64,000 bases of DNA from Pseudorhodobacter sp. PARRP1. Its GTDB lineage: Bacteria; Pseudomonadota; Alphaproteobacteria; Rhodobacterales; Rhodobacteraceae. Both the position numbers and the translations under genes were made by a program. This document shows positions 2,295 to 8,472 of the stretch, in pieces; positions within the stretch are counted from its first letter, which is position 1, and the number at the start of each line of letters is the position of its first letter. The notes beneath the pieces were generated by a model that searched no databases, was not told the DNA's origin, and was given only the letters and a program-made list of their open reading frames with translations. The stretch lies in NCBI GenBank assembly GCA_002256245.1, contig NKIU01000001.1:62001-126000 (forward strand), written 5' to 3'.

Positions 2295-3599
2295 CTATCG
2301 CCCGACGGCCACGTAAGTCTGGAACCCGGCCTCGGTGGCTTCTTCCAGCGAATAGATGTTGCGCAGATCGGCCATGCGCGGGGTTTCCATCTTTTTCGCA
2401 AGCTTGCTGAGGTCCAGAGCCCGGAACTCGTTCCATTCGGTCAAAAGCACCACCAGATCAGCGCCATGCGCCGCCTGATACGGGCTTTCCACCCATTTCA
2501 CGCCGGGCAAAAGCGCCTCGCCCTCGCGCTGGCCCTGCGGATCAACCACCCGCACCTTGGCCCCGCCCCCCACCAACGCAGGCACGATGGTCAGACTGGG
2601 CGCGTCGCGCATGTCATCGGTGTTGGGCTTGAAGGTGACGCCCAGCACCGCGATGGTCTTGCCGTTCAGACTGCCGTCGCAAAGATCAACCAGCTTGTCG
2701 ATCATCCGGCGCTTGATCTCATCATTCACCTTGATCACGGTTTCGGTGATCTGCATCGGCACCGCATGATCCTGCCCGATCCGCGCCAAGGCCATGGTAT
2801 CTTTCGGAAAACACGATCCGCCATAGCCGGGGCCTGCGTGCAGGAACTTGTTGCCGATCCGGCCATCCATCCCCATGCCTTTCGACACATCCTTGATATC
2901 CGCACCAACTTTTTCGCACAACGCCGCGATTTCGTTGATGAAGGTGATCTTGGTGGCAAGGAAAGCGTTGGCCGCGTATTTGATCATCTCGGCAGACTCA
3001 AGACCGGTATAAACCACCGGGAATTCGCGCAAGAACAGCGGGCGGTAGATATCCGCCATCACCTTGCGCGCGCGTGGGCTTTCAACGCCCACGACCACCC
3101 GGTCAGGTCGCATGAAATCGTCAATCGCCGCCCCTTCGCGCAGGAATTCGGGGTTCGAGGCCACATCGAACTTGGCATCCGGGTTGGCCGCTGCCGCCGC
3201 CTCGGCCACCTTGCGGTTGGTGCCCACAGGCACCGTCGATTTGGTGACAATCACCGCGTAACCCGTAAGCGCCCGGCCGATTTCCTCTGCCGCGGCCATC
3301 ACATAGGTCAGATCCGCATGGCCATCGCCGCGCCGGGTGGGCGTGCCCACCGCGATGAACACGGCATCCGCCCCCGCCACCGCCTCGGCCAGATCCAGCG
3401 TGAACGACAAGCGCCCGGCGCTGACGTTCTTGGCCATCAACGCCTCAAGCCCCGGCTCGAAGATCGGCACCTGGCCTGCCTTCAGGCGGTCAATCTTGCC
3501 GGGGTCTTTATCGACGCAAATCACCTCGTGCCCGAAATCCGAGAAACACACGCCCGAAACCAAGCCGACATAGCCGGTTCCGATCATCGCAATCTTCAT
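2295..3599 (-). CDS. ugd: UDP-glucose 6-dehydrogenase
   Basis: Oxidises UDP-glucose twice to UDP-glucuronate with NAD+, a precursor for acidic capsule and LPS sugars. The 434-aa protein has the N-terminal Rossmann motif MKIAMIGTGYVGLVSG, the helix-dimer middle domain, and the catalytic cysteine (Cys263) in GYGGSCFPKD. The C-terminal UDP-binding domain follows (GVTFKPNTDDMRDAPS). Length is typical for the family. It is the first gene of the ugd - glycosyltransferase - galE run, separated from the upstream fibre-like module by a terminator at 3708-3735, so it probably has its own promoter in 3600-3707. Confidence 0.96.
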   Translation of the reverse strand: MKIAMIGTGYVGLVSGVCFSDFGHEVICVDKDPGKIDRLKAGQVPIFEPGLEALMAKNVSAGRLSFTLDLAEAVAGADAVFIAVGTPTRRGDGHADLTYVMAAAEEIGRALTGYAVIVTKSTVPVGTNRKVAEAAAAANPDAKFDVASNPEFLREGAAIDDFMRPDRVVVGVESPRARKVMADIYRPLFLREFPVVYTGLESAEMIKYAANAFLATKITFINEIAALCEKVGADIKDVSKGMGMDGRIGNKFLHAGPGYGGSCFPKDTMALARIGQDHAVPMQITETVIKVNDEIKRRMIDKLVDLCDGSLNGKTIAVLGVTFKPNTDDMRDAPSLTIVPALVGGGAKVRVVDPQGQREGEALLPGVKWVESPYQAAHGADLVVLLTEWNEFRALDLSKLAKKMETPRMADLRNIYSLEEATEAGFQTYVAVGR

Positions 3600-3707: not shown

Positions 3708-3735
3708 AAAAGGCCGGAAGGTTTCCCCTCCGGCC
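3708..3735 (-). terminator. Intrinsic terminator of the fibre-like operon
   Basis: Stem of 10 bp with one mismatch (3712-3721 with 3726-3735, loop TTTC), followed on the minus strand by TTTT (3708-3711). It lies 19 bp past the stop of the glycine-rich gene and before ugd, so it ends the 6654-to-3754 transcript. Confidence 0.7.
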
Positions 3736-3753: not shown

Positions 3754-4620
3754 TTAGGACATGCAGGTGATCAGAACAAAGCCATCGCCGCCACGACCGC
3801 CCTGCCCCGCCGTAACACCCGCGCCGCCGCCGCCACCACCCGAGCCACGCGCGCCAGCCCCCCCGGCACCGCCCGCGCCCGTGTTCGACGCCCCGCCCCC
3901 CGAGCCGCCCGAAAACGTCGGCGGCAGCCACAACTCATAGCCCGCCGCGCCGATATTGCTGCCCGCCGCTGCCCCCGCAATCGTCGGGCAAAGGCCCGCG
4001 CCATTGACAGAGCCGCCCGCGAAATCTGCCGATGTGGTGCCACCGCCCCCCGCGCCGCCGCTGGTGAAGATATTCACCGCACCAAACGCCACCGAAGTGC
4101 CCGTGCCGCCAGCAACGGCACCGCCTGCGGCACCGGATTGGCCTGCGATGCTGACAAAACTGCCCAAGGCCGAGTAGGCTCCGCCCGAGGTGATGGTGCC
4201 AGCGGCCCCGGCGGCACCAACCGCAGCGCCCGTCCCGGTGCCGCCCGCCCCGCCGCCGTTGGCACTGGCCAACAGGGCCGCCACGGCAGCAGCCGACATC
4301 CCCGCAACGCTGGAAACAGCACCCGCCCCCCCCGGCACGCCGCCCGCGCCCACCGAGATAAACAAGGTGCCCGGCAGCAGCGCGGCGGGCACCACGATGC
4401 GCGACACCGCCCCCCCGCCACCACCACCACCGCCACCGCGCGCCGCAGCGGCTGCGGCCGCAAAGCCCGCGCCGCCACCGCCACCGCCGCCCACCAGCAA
4501 AATCTCCAGCAGCACAGCGCCTAAGGGCACCGTATAGCTTTGCCACTGGCCCGCCGCCCCCACCGGATCAAACCGCCGGGTCTGTCCCGCCTCACGCGGC
4601 AGGAAATGCGGAAAACTCAT
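3754..4620 (-). CDS. Glycine-rich fibre-like protein
   Basis: A 288-aa protein that is extremely rich in Gly, Ala, Ser and Thr. After a short N-terminal region (about residues 1-35, ending YTVPLGAVLLEILLVG) it runs into long glycine blocks and ends in a GDGFVLITCM strand. The pattern of a VPxG..LEILLVGGGGG opening and a closing beta strand matches glycine-rich domains seen in phage tail and spike proteins. No signal peptide or catalytic motif is seen. Its ATG overlaps the stop of the preceding gene by one base (TGATG), indicating translational coupling. Glycine-rich polymer-forming or tip protein of a particle or adhesin is my inference; the exact function is unknown. Confidence 0.55.
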   Translation of the reverse strand: MSFPHFLPREAGQTRRFDPVGAAGQWQSYTVPLGAVLLEILLVGGGGGGGAGFAAAAAAARGGGGGGGGGAVSRIVVPAALLPGTLFISVGAGGVPGGAGAVSSVAGMSAAAVAALLASANGGGAGGTGTGAAVGAAGAAGTITSGGAYSALGSFVSIAGQSGAAGGAVAGGTGTSVAFGAVNIFTSGGAGGGGTTSADFAGGSVNGAGLCPTIAGAAAGSNIGAAGYELWLPPTFSGGSGGGASNTGAGGAGGAGARGSGGGGGGAGVTAGQGGRGGDGFVLITCMS

Positions 4621-5033
4621 CAGTAATCCCCCCCGAAACCCGCCACGGCATAGCCGCCCGCCACCGCCGTGCCCAAAGTCACCTGCACGCGGTAGCCGGG
4701 CGGCACCGGGATGTTCAGCGGCAGCTCATTGCCCGACAGTGCCGCCACTTCGGAAAGCGTGGTCGCAGGCAGCGACAACTCGGCGATCAGCACGTTGTTG
4801 GCCGCCGTCGCGTTAGACGAGCCGTTGTTGAGAAACACCCGCAGCACGCTCGCCACATTGGTGCCCCTGGGCCGCACAACCAGCTTTTGCAGATACGACC
4901 CATTCGTCGCATCCGCCGTGAACACCGTGTCCACCGTGCCGGTGCCATCCTTGGCCGTATTGGCGGCGGTGATGCCGCCTGCCCATTCCACACGGGCCAC
5001 TTTCGAGAAAATCGGGGAAGTATTGCCGGGCAT
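4620..5033 (-). CDS. Small unknown protein of the fibre-like module
   Basis: A 137-aa protein with no signal peptide, no membrane segment and a predominantly beta, Thr/Ala/Val-rich composition (for example LQKLVVRPRGTNVASVLRVF and PVPPGYRVQVTLGT). I do not recognise a named family. The general look is that of small phage structural or tail-accessory proteins. A clear AGGAG ribosome site precedes the ATG, and the gene lies 10 bp after the DUF2793 gene and overlaps the glycine-rich gene by one base, so the three are made together and probably act together. Confidence 0.5.
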   Translation of the reverse strand: MPGNTSPIFSKVARVEWAGGITAANTAKDGTGTVDTVFTADATNGSYLQKLVVRPRGTNVASVLRVFLNNGSSNATAANNVLIAELSLPATTLSEVAALSGNELPLNIPVPPGYRVQVTLGTAVAGGYAVAGFGGDY

Positions 5034-5043
5034 TGCCGCTCTC

Positions 5044-6654
5044 CTAGTTGATGAATGCTTGTTGGTTCAGCGCGACCTGCACGCCGTATTTTGTCGGTGT
5101 CGCCAGCGTCCAGACCGTGCCGCCACTCGAGACGATGACATCGCCCTTCGCCCCGTCGCTGATGCCCGCGCTGATCACCTGGCTCACGCCCGCGCTGCGC
5201 ACCTTGACCTGTCCGCTTGTGGTGTTCAGCCAGACCATGCCATTGACCGGGCTGGCCGGGTCCGCCGCCTGCCCGCCCAAATTCAGCACCTGCGGCAGGC
5301 TCAGTTGCCCCGTCGCCCGCGCCACCGTCATCGCGGTGTAAAACGTTGATCCATCCGGGCTGACCTTGATCGCGAAATCATCCGATCCGGTGGTGCCCAT
5401 CTCGGCCCGCCCCGAAAACCCGGTCTGAAACGTCAGGCTGGCGGTCTGCCCCGCCGCCGCCTTGTTCAGCTTCAACTGATGCCCCGCGCCGTCATGGTTC
5501 AACAGCGTCGCAGGCGCGTTGACCGACAAGCGGTTGGTCGCATCCGGGCTGGCCCCGCCCACGCCGATCTCATCCAGCGTCATCGTCGCCGCAGGGGCCG
5601 CGATACTGGCCACGCTGGCCGCAAACGTCACGCTGGGGCTGTTGATCACCGTGCTGCCACCCGCCCCCGCCACGCTCGATCCGATATTGACCACCGTGGT
5701 CGAGCCGCTGACCCCCCCGGTGCCCAGATTGATCGTCGAGGTGTTGCCCGAAGCCGTCGCGCCGCCGCCGACGCTATAGCTGCTGTTGGCGGTCGAGGTG
5801 CCAAGGCTCGCCGTGGCCGCGCTGACGGTAAACGTGCCCGAAAACGTCTTGGCCCCGGTGAAGGTCTGCGTCACCGCCAGCCCCGCCAGTTCGGTGGTGC
5901 CATTCGGCAGCGTATAGCTGCGCGTCGTCCCCGTCGGGACCGATGCCACCGAGAATGTCGCCCGCTTTGTCGGATCAGCCGGGTCGCGCAGACTGAACCC
6001 GCTTGTCAGCATCCCCTGCGGCAGCGCGACATAGCCTGTGCCCGCCGCCACCGTCACCGCATCCAGAAAACTGCTGCCATCGGGCGAAACCTTCAGGCTG
6101 AAATCATCCGCCCCTTGGGTGCCCAGCAGCGCGCGGCTGGAATATCCGGTCTGAAACGCCAAACTGGCGCTATCGCCCACTGTGGCCTTGTTCAGCTTCA
6201 TCAGATGCCCGGCCCCGGCATGATCAAACAGCGACGCAGGTGCCGAAACCGCCAGCCGGTTGGTGGCATCCGCCGTCGCCGACACGCCCAACTGCCCCAC
6301 CGACAACGGCCCATCGGTCAGCGCAAGCCACGCGCTGCCATTGAAACTCACCATCGCGGCTTCGGCCACCACATAGGCCTGCCAGCCCGCCCGCGGCGTG
6401 AAGAACTGCCACACGCCGGTCTCGAACATGGCAATCTTGCCGGTCTGCCCGGCCCAAACCCCTGTTGCGCCCGCAGGCACGATATAGCGGTCTCCCAACA
6501 CCGGACTGCTCGGCGGCGCGCTCAGAACCCGCGACGTGACCGACAGTTGCACCATCAGGTCCAGCAACCGCAGAGCCTCGTTATGCGTCACATGCTTTTG
6601 CGCTTGCGCGGGTTGGATCAGGGGCAACGACAGGATCGTTGAAGTATCGGGCAT
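5044..6654 (-). CDS. DUF2793 domain protein with internal duplication (candidate head-spike/fibre protein)
   Basis: A 536-aa protein. Residues 1-105 match my recollection of the DUF2793 family (LPLIQPAQAQKHVTHNEAL, GDRYIVP, WAGQTGKIA, WQFFTPRAGW), common in Rhodobacterales phage-like loci. Residues 121-213 and 362-455 are copies of each other, sharing DATNRL, KLNKA, FQTG and DDF..KVSPDGS, roughly 60% identical by eye. A Ser/Thr/Gly-rich low-complexity stretch (about 255-350) separates them. No signal peptide is present, as expected for a particle protein. A GGAGG site supports the ATG. In Rhodobacter capsulatus the gene transfer agent head spikes are encoded outside the main GTA cluster near capsule genes. 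The position next to ugd/galE fits such a role, but this is inference. Confidence 0.65.
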   Translation of the reverse strand: MPDTSTILSLPLIQPAQAQKHVTHNEALRLLDLMVQLSVTSRVLSAPPSSPVLGDRYIVPAGATGVWAGQTGKIAMFETGVWQFFTPRAGWQAYVVAEAAMVSFNGSAWLALTDGPLSVGQLGVSATADATNRLAVSAPASLFDHAGAGHLMKLNKATVGDSASLAFQTGYSSRALLGTQGADDFSLKVSPDGSSFLDAVTVAAGTGYVALPQGMLTSGFSLRDPADPTKRATFSVASVPTGTTRSYTLPNGTTELAGLAVTQTFTGAKTFSGTFTVSAATASLGTSTANSSYSVGGGATASGNTSTINLGTGGVSGSTTVVNIGSSVAGAGGSTVINSPSVTFAASVASIAAPAATMTLDEIGVGGASPDATNRLSVNAPATLLNHDGAGHQLKLNKAAAGQTASLTFQTGFSGRAEMGTTGSDDFAIKVSPDGSTFYTAMTVARATGQLSLPQVLNLGGQAADPASPVNGMVWLNTTSGQVKVRSAGVSQVISAGISDGAKGDVIVSSGGTVWTLATPTKYGVQVALNQQAFIN

Positions 6655-6877
6655 CTATAACCTCCGCGAGAACGCTCATGGAGGCAGAAGCTATGAAAAA
6701 CCCGTTAACACCGATAAACCACAGCGCGCGCTGGCGGCAGCATGACGCAATCTTTGACGCGTGGCGCAGTTTTGCCCCGCCGCCAAACCCCAAAGCACAT
6801 GGGTCGCACAGGCGCGCGCAACGCAGAATATCCAGATGATGTGGTCAGAAATTCGCAATCCACCACCTACAGAGATC

Positions 6878-6905: not shown

Positions 6906-7796
6906 TCAATCCTGCTGCAACGCCGCCGCATCCACGGCGTCGCGCCACGTCACAAAGGTAATCGCGCCGATAATCATCGCCCCGCCCAGCAGCACGAAAA
7001 TATCCACGGCCTCGTTAAACAGCAAAGCCCCCACCAGCGTCGCCCAGATCAGCGTCAGAAACGTCACCGGCTGCGTCACCGTCAAAGGTGCCGCCCGAAA
7101 CGCCCGCGTCATGCAGTAATGCCCCGAGGTGGCACAGCCCGCCACAATCGCCAGCCACCCCAGTTGCGCCCAATCGACCGGAACCCAGACCCACCACGCC
7201 AACGGGGCCAGCCCAATCGTCACCGTCACCGACATCATCGCCACAATGACGCTTGCGCTGGCCAAACCCGTCAACCGCTTGGCAAACAGATAGCTTCCAC
7301 AGAAAAATACCGAGGCCCCGATCTGGCTCAGATGCCCGATATTCAGCGCCTGCACCCCCGGCCGCAGCACGATCAGCGCACCCGCCAGCGCCACCCCCAC
7401 CGCAACGACCCGCCGCGCCGACAGCGGTTCGTGCAAGATGATCGCCCCTGCCACCAGCATCAAAACCGGGTTGAGGTATCCAATCGCCGTGGCATGGGCG
7501 ACGGGGATGCGGGCCATGGCAAAAAACCAGAACAGCACCGCAACCGTGTGCATCAGCCCCCGCCACGCAAACAACCGCAGGGCAGGCGCACTTAACCCGC
7601 GCAGCATCCCCGGCAGCACCGGGGCCAAAAACACCACCCCAAAGGCAAAGCGCAAAAACGCCGATTGCGCGGCAGGCAACTCGGTGCCCAGATAGCGCAC
7701 GATGCCGTTGACCCCCACAAAGGAAAGCCCCGACAACACCATCCACATCACCCCTTCGCGGGGCCGTCCCAGATCAGTCATTTGCATGGCCGCCAT
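6906..7796 (-). CDS. EamA/DMT-superfamily inner-membrane transporter
   Basis: A 296-aa polytopic membrane protein with two EamA-type halves of about five helices each (first GVMWMVLSGLSFVGVNGIVRYLG, second HLSQIGASVFFCGSYLFAK onward). Length and the ten-helix layout are those of drug/metabolite exporters of the RhaT/YdcZ/EamA group. The substrate is unknown. It lies 9 bp after the argO-like gene on the same strand and is probably co-transcribed with it. The ATG at 7796 follows a weak AGG; ATGs at 7787 and 7781 are possible alternatives. Confidence 0.8.
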   Translation of the reverse strand: MAAMQMTDLGRPREGVMWMVLSGLSFVGVNGIVRYLGTELPAAQSAFLRFAFGVVFLAPVLPGMLRGLSAPALRLFAWRGLMHTVAVLFWFFAMARIPVAHATAIGYLNPVLMLVAGAIILHEPLSARRVVAVGVALAGALIVLRPGVQALNIGHLSQIGASVFFCGSYLFAKRLTGLASASVIVAMMSVTVTIGLAPLAWWVWVPVDWAQLGWLAIVAGCATSGHYCMTRAFRAAPLTVTQPVTFLTLIWATLVGALLFNEAVDIFVLLGGAMIIGAITFVTWRDAVDAAALQQD

Positions 7797-7805
7797 CAAG
7801 CAAGC

Positions 7806-8411
7806 CTAGCCGCCAAAGGCAAGCCCCGCCGCGATGCCCCACATCGTCACCCCCACGATCACCTCCAGCACCACCCAGGCCTTCGGGTTTGCAAACACCG
7901 GGGCCAACAGCCGCGCGCCGTAACCCAAAGCGGTGAAAAAGCTGAAACTGCCCGCCGCAGCCGCCACCCCAAACGCCAACCGATGCCCCGGATACTGCGC
8001 CGAAATCGACCCCAGCAGCACCACCGTATCCAGATAAACATGCGGGTTGGCCCATGTCAGCACCAGCACCGTCGTCAAAACCTTTGAAACACGCACCGCC
8101 GATCCCTGCCCCGGCTGCAACGCCGCGCCCCCCGCCAGTGCCGCTTTGAACCGCAGCGCGCCGTAAACCAGCAGAAAGATCACCCCACCCCAGCGCATCG
8201 CCTCGGCCAGCCACGGCACCGCGGTTGACACCACACCAAACCCCGTCACCCCCAAGGCAATCAGGATCGCATCCGATGCAGCACAGGCCAGCACCACCAC
8301 GCCGACATGCTCGCGCCGCAGCCCCTGCCGCAACACAAAGGCGTTCTGCGCGCCAATCGCAAGGATCAGGCTAAGCGACACCAGATAGCCGTGAACTGCC
8401 GCTTCCAACAT
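7806..8411 (-). CDS. argO: LysE/ArgO-family amino-acid exporter
   Basis: A 201-aa inner-membrane protein with the LysE signature near the start (LSLILAIGAQNAFVLRQGLRR) and about six hydrophobic helices, the size of ArgO (YggA). It exports arginine and related basic amino acids in characterised members. It is divergently placed from an ArgP-type LysR regulator at 8509, the classical argP-argO pairing, which strengthens the assignment. I start at ATG 8411 (MLEAAVHGYLVSLS); upstream in-frame codons are polar and would spoil the first helix. Confidence 0.85.
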   Translation of the reverse strand: MLEAAVHGYLVSLSLILAIGAQNAFVLRQGLRREHVGVVVLACAASDAILIALGVTGFGVVSTAVPWLAEAMRWGGVIFLLVYGALRFKAALAGGAALQPGQGSAVRVSKVLTTVLVLTWANPHVYLDTVVLLGSISAQYPGHRLAFGVAAAAGSFSFFTALGYGARLLAPVFANPKAWVVLEVIVGVTMWGIAAGLAFGG

Positions 8412-8443
8412 GATCCTACCCCCGCGCGATGACTGCTTTGGGC

Positions 8444-8472
8444 TTGACCTATCAGCGTGGCCGCCGTTCAAT
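8444..8472 (+). promoter_or_regulatory. Candidate argP promoter in the argO-argP divergent region
   Basis: TTGACC (8444-8449), a 17-bp spacer and TTCAAT (8467-8472) form a plausible sigma70-type promoter reading toward argP. The 97-bp gap between argO and argP should also hold the ArgP binding site for argO, but I cannot point to it with confidence. Confidence 0.35.

Follow-up and report, generated by a model that had tools for sequence, protein, structure and literature searches.

A three-gene operon in the window, the stretch of 64,000 nucleotides analysed here from a genome of the genus Cypionkella, probably encodes the detached tail fibre of a gene transfer agent (GTA), fitted with a phage-type distal half, a coupler and a glycine-rich tip; we put the probability of this reading at about 0.7. 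Its counterpart would be rcc00171 of R. capsulatus, which encodes the tail fibre of RcGTA from outside the main cluster and is triggered by CtrA/GafA, and whose product binds the capsule (PMC7296036, PMC9638019, PMC10218006).

Architecture of the cassette

The three minus-strand open reading frames lie where an earlier sequence-only reading of this DNA had placed them. They are closely packed, with 10 bp between the genes for the 536-aa and 137-aa proteins and a 1-base overlap between those for the 137-aa and 288-aa proteins. The features considered here are:

5044–6654, minus strand: DUF2793 tail fibre, 536 aa (PF10983, match to 8gtc_S, repeats, domain mosaic)
4620–5033, minus strand: 137-aa protein, proposed fibre-to-adhesin coupler (uncatalogued phage family, relatives in viral contigs)
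3754–4620, minus strand: 288-aa glycine-rich protein, proposed tip adhesin (PF21722, phrog_754, alignment with RcHotPocket gene 25)
3712–3735, minus strand: intrinsic-terminator-like hairpin of 10 pairs with a T run, closing the operon between the 288-aa gene and ugd
6712–6732, minus strand: AGCGCGCGCTGTGGTTTATCG, candidate promoter element (best match in 64 kb to a weight matrix of GTA-cluster promoters)
2295–3599, minus strand: ugd, UDP-glucose 6-dehydrogenase, a neighbour outside the cassette (TIGR03026, PF03721/PF00984/PF03720)
6906–8471, minus strand: EamA-family and LysE-family transporter genes, upstream neighbours kept across genera at the detached fibre locus

Purifying selection acts on all three genes, with pairwise dN/dS values of 0.05–0.26 across four to seven Cypionkella species, and they are therefore real, maintained genes. 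The earlier description of three coupled, phage-like genes with a terminator of their own is borne out by the reading frames, by the phage synteny set out below and by the hairpin and T run at 3735–3712; several terminator-like hairpins are expected by chance in the region, but none of the others is as long or as well placed. The sugar-gene neighbours named in the same reading stand in part: ugd and galE (TIGR01179 match above cut-off) are upheld, whereas the supposed glycosyltransferase between them, a 316-aa product encoded at 1301–2251 on the minus strand, matches no Pfam or NCBIfam model. This 316-aa gene is kept in two close relatives at 75–79% identity, and tblastn did not find it at the C. 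aquatica locus.

A DUF2793 fibre whose distal half is of phage type

As anticipated from the sequence alone, the 536-aa product belongs to DUF2793 (PF10983), with an E value of 3e-33 and 114 bits against a Pfam gathering cut-off of 27. The domain spans residues 24–109, within the N-terminal attachment region and knob. The tail fibre of RcGTA, named Rcc00171 in PMC7296036, is likewise a DUF2793 protein (PMC10883770), and the suspected link to GTAs is sound in this respect. The protein also matches the baseplate fibre of roseophage R4C (8gtc_S) with an E value of 1e-15, or 2.5e-22 for the profile; the R4C fibre consists of rod, knob and foot domains, of which the rod binds the megatron (PMC10276861). 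In the PDB, 8gtc chain S carries the label 'Ribonuclease III', apparently a misnomer.

In siphophages of the RcC cluster, which infect R. capsulatus, the same trio occurs in identical order directly after the GTA TIM-barrel ("megatron") gene. The syntenic relatives are genes 23-24-25 of RcHotPocket and 21-22-23 of RcOceanus, with identities to the window proteins of about 58% for the fibre, 67% for the 137-aa protein and 59% for the glycine-rich protein, the last figure covering the first 88 residues. Judged from sequence, the trio is a siphophage tail-fibre cassette, because its fibre is homologous to that of R4C and falls in DUF2793, and because the RcC phages hold the trio in synteny behind their megatron.

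The receptor-binding role that had been proposed for the locus appears right, with a tail fibre as its likely bearer. The earlier proposal had assigned it to a GTA head spike of the GhsA/GhsB kind next to capsule genes. RcGTA head spikes do bind the capsule, the locus numbers place the capsule genes rcc01081–01086 immediately after the spike genes rcc01079/01080 (PMC10218006, PMC7296036), and the window has a sugar-gene neighbourhood of its own. However, the DUF2793 family, the match to a baseplate fibre and the place behind the megatron in phages all point to the tail; the RcGTA spike chains were unmatched in the PDB sequence search, and none of the three window proteins has the N-terminal LGLGLG anchor by which the RcGTA head fibre is marked (PMC7296036). 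On family, structural relative, synteny and missing anchor we rejected the head spike, which we consider very improbable.

The fibre is a mosaic. Residues 122–213 and 363–455 form a repeat in which 58 of 93 columns are identical, and between the two copies, at about 215–360, lies an insert of a type present in the genome's own prophages. Residues 1–230 resemble the detached lineage and match the corresponding gene of other Cypionkella species; residues 220–536 match the RcHotPocket fibre, in which the N-terminus is joined directly to that part. Some fibre alleles hold a single copy of the 93-column domain. In other Cypionkella lineages the locus is kept, but the fibre end is longer and different and no coupler is present. 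This pattern fits recombination at the repeated domain, with transfer probably running from phage to GTA.

The middle protein and the glycine-rich protein

The sequence-only reading could give the middle product no family, and we reached the same result: the 137-aa protein has no Pfam or NCBIfam match. A set of 24 family members had no credible Pfam match, no PDB match and a single PHROGs match (E 0.0044), so that the family is essentially missing from Pfam and PHROGs; none of the 24 matched the families of tail fibre assembly chaperones (TFA) in either collection. Its members share the near-invariant motifs ANTAKDGTGT and NNG, in the pattern ANTAKDGTGT...RxFxNNG...NN. The gene was not found in 148 other Rhodobacteraceae genera or on plasmids and does occur in phages; relatives of the protein are widespread in viral contigs, 89 of which encode one; the best 80 of these 89 made up our viral-contig set.

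What surrounds the 137-aa relatives suggests their function. The gene upstream can often be recognised as a fibre by its collagen repeats, DUF5907 or DUF2793, and many of these upstream products carry either of two short motifs at their C-terminal end, the motif having been picked post hoc. The downstream reading frame is glycine-rich in 26 of 54 cases as against 32 of 613 other reading frames (P 3e-16, from related viral contigs that are not independent of one another). We propose that the 137-aa protein is a coupler which joins the fibre to an exchangeable tip adhesin, and that the C-terminal tail of the window fibre, which ends in KYGVQVALNQQAFIN, may dock it. The AlphaFold model of the 137-aa protein, from a two-sequence alignment, is all-beta with a pLDDT of 54.5, too weak for a test of the coupler role, and gave no significant Foldseek match. 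A distant relative lies at 4992–5372 in Pseudanabaena phage Pam2, after an annotated tail fibre; the next Pam2 gene (5372–6169) bears an automatic toxin name in the record, implausible given its location among tail genes.

The third product, already described as glycine-rich in the sequence-only reading, contains 31% glycine and matches PF21722 (Gly_rich_2, E 5e-8) as well as phrog_754, a minor tail protein family (E 7e-9). RcHotPocket gene 25 aligns with it over the full length. Its AlphaFold model, again from a two-sequence alignment, has a pLDDT of 32 and is unusable for the fold, including that of a polyglycine sandwich. We propose that this 288-aa protein is the tip adhesin.

Detached fibres tend to co-occur with fibre-less megatrons

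Which particle would use the fibre? The genome contains three megatrons, on contigs C17, C21 and C27, and the window fibre lies on a fourth contig, C24. The megatrons of C21 and C27 are each followed by a DUF2793 gene and lie inside lambda-type prophages (GpA terminase, portal_2). These prophages, at about 23000–51335 of C21 and about 228000–257767 of C27, are related to each other and carry GTA-like tail modules. The C17 cluster encodes Terminase_6, an HK97 capsid, hub, NlpC peptidase and megatron and has no DUF2793 gene; we take it to be the GTA head-tail cluster. The NCBIfam model GTA_megatron was discarded as a discriminator between GTA and prophage, since both kinds match it; terminase and portal type separates them.

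Across the 126 Rhodobacteraceae genera with complete hit lists, which are partly non-independent, fibre-less megatrons and detached DUF2793 genes occur together in 49 and are both missing in 48 (Fisher P 3e-10). The discordant genera comprise 21 of the 70 with a fibre-less megatron, which have no detached DUF2793 gene, and 8 of the reverse kind. In a tree of 91 rows built on the first 200 residues, with bootstrap values incompletely settled, detached fibres form one clade of 53 rows (support 97/98), a few detached genes falling outside it. The clade holds 37 detached fibres from other genera, 14 from Cypionkella itself and two from viral contigs; the window gene is inside it, and the fibres of the genome's own prophages and of the RcC phages sit in another clade.

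The cassette might instead serve the resident prophages of C21 and C27, or a superinfecting phage, as a spare or alternative fibre left by an old integration. Genes 23–25 of the RcC phages are in synteny with the trio, prophage and GTA megatrons fall in one NCBIfam family so that their fibre sockets may be alike, and C. aquatica has the trio and a prophage megatron with no GTA cluster detected. Each prophage, however, already encodes its own fibre, the N-terminus of the window fibre lies outside the prophage clades, and the locus, flanked on either side by host genes, has stayed the same from genus to genus. We judge this use by a phage unlikely, and use by the GTA the better account.

Conservation of the genes where a GTA cluster is lacking, which the sequence-only reading had named, jointly with a lack of capsule genes, as evidence against itself, was found in C. 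aquatica, one of the seven Cypionkella genomes with the 137-aa gene. The assembly of strain NBRC 111766 is 99% complete and has the trio intact and a prophage megatron, and neither a GTA major capsid gene nor a fibre-less megatron was detected in it; recent loss of the GTA, an assembly gap or another use of the trio could each account for this. The other six genomes have pieces of a GTA-type megatron in six of six and the GTA capsid in five of six. Another use might be that of a phage-derived, domesticated adhesin operon of the cell surface with no particle involved: the glycine-rich protein resembles an adhesin, and the trio, maintained by purifying selection, persists in C. aquatica. Yet the fibre keeps a DUF2793 N-terminus whose homologue belongs to a fibre that docks on a baseplate, the neighbours examined included no recognisable secretion gene, and detached fibres co-occur with fibre-less megatrons. 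A surface adhesin is accordingly improbable in our view, more so than a prophage fibre, and a GTA tail fibre remains the preferred reading.

Promoter element and sugar-gene neighbours

When both strands of the 64 kb are scored with a weight matrix derived solely from eight Cypionkella GTA-cluster promoters, the best match falls at 6732–6712, just upstream of the fibre gene. For eight out of nine further fibre loci of Cypionkella, the element is likewise the best match of the locus. Two bp after the element follows GTTAAC, a possible CtrA half-site of which TTAA is conserved; CtrA half-sites have been reported for rcc00171 of R. capsulatus (PMC9638019). For this one promoter, the match is suggestive of a candidate element common to the fibre gene and the GTA cluster. 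Scanning 15 genomes for the pattern yielded 51 matches as against 14 for the reversed control; the element is GC-rich, and nearly all of the 20 matching regions inspected have it in coding sequence. Since the inspected genomic matches are mostly coding, we dropped the element as a regulon-wide GTA box.

The gene order LysR-LysE-EamA-fibre-(variable)-ugd is common to Cypionkella, Tabrizicola and Pseudorhodobacter, was seen without LysR in Xinfangfangia, and is partly kept in Paracoccus sp. IB05, Fuscibacter and Rhodobacter sp. KR11. In a family sample restricted to genomes with a ugd orthologue, that orthologue lies within 25 kb of the detached fibre in 11 of 33 cases, the window being one of the 11, as against 0.45 expected; for megatron-linked fibres the count is 0 of 35. 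The suspected association with a sugar-nucleotide gene thus exceeds what chance would give. On the fibre tree, ugd proximity requires at least six changes, and the gene orientations vary; it therefore does not stem from one single inheritance. In the literature searched, we found no mention of such an association of detached fibres with ugd. One candidate reading of this proximity is that the sugar genes beside the fibre produce its receptor.

Model and implications

How might these parts work together? The N-terminus of the fibre would dock on the megatron baseplate protein supplied by the fibre-less C17 cluster. The distal half, together with the coupler and the glycine-rich protein, is of the RcC-siphophage type and was probably gained from such a phage through recombination at the repeat. 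Seated on the C-terminal tail of the fibre, the coupler would hold the glycine-rich adhesin, which would contact the recipient cell, probably at a surface polysaccharide.

A broader possibility, which we offer tentatively and at less than even odds, is that a GTA re-targets itself when the distal half of its detached fibre is replaced with a phage receptor-binding cassette of fibre end, widespread coupler and exchangeable tip, in a chromosomal slot that lies repeatedly beside genes for the recognised sugar. If true, the specificity of the fibre could travel with the polysaccharide of its own cell and let GTAs track kin. The locus bears on recipient recognition by GTAs and on the reason for encoding their fibres off the main cluster. 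It offers a concrete fibre, a trace of modules exchanged between the fibres of phages and of GTAs, and a statistical association of detached fibres with ugd. If the coupler role is true, the 137-aa family would furthermore be a general marker of receptor-binding proteins that annotation now misses.

Comparison with known systems

Similar to Salmonella phage S16 gp38 and cyanophage Pam3 gp24, distal receptor-binding proteins with long glycine-rich stretches, the window glycine-rich protein would end a fibre; the likeness is one of composition and position, and no sequence match between it and either protein was found. Pam3 uses a TFA-type chaperone (PMC9608196), in contrast to the window 137-aa protein, which has no TFA family match. 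The fibre of vB_DshS-R4C (8gtc chain S) is homologous to the window fibre over residues 6–141, covering rod and knob. It has 230 aa and a single distal 'foot', whereas the window fibre is much longer and its distal domain is duplicated.

The RcC phages (RcHotPocket 23–25, RcOceanus 21–23) share the three genes, their order and a similarly tight spacing with the window. Their trio belongs to a tail operon after the megatron, whereas the window trio is by itself at a site in the chromosome, and the N-termini of the fibres fall in different clades. Rcc00171 has 371 residues, as against 536 aa with a duplicated domain and two extra phage-type genes in the window, and no coupler or glycine-rich tip gene is described with it in the literature searched. 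Compared by family and description, Rcc00171 and the window fibre are nonetheless alike in belonging to DUF2793, in being encoded off the main cluster, in a receptor-binding role, putative for the window fibre, and in a possible CtrA half-site upstream.
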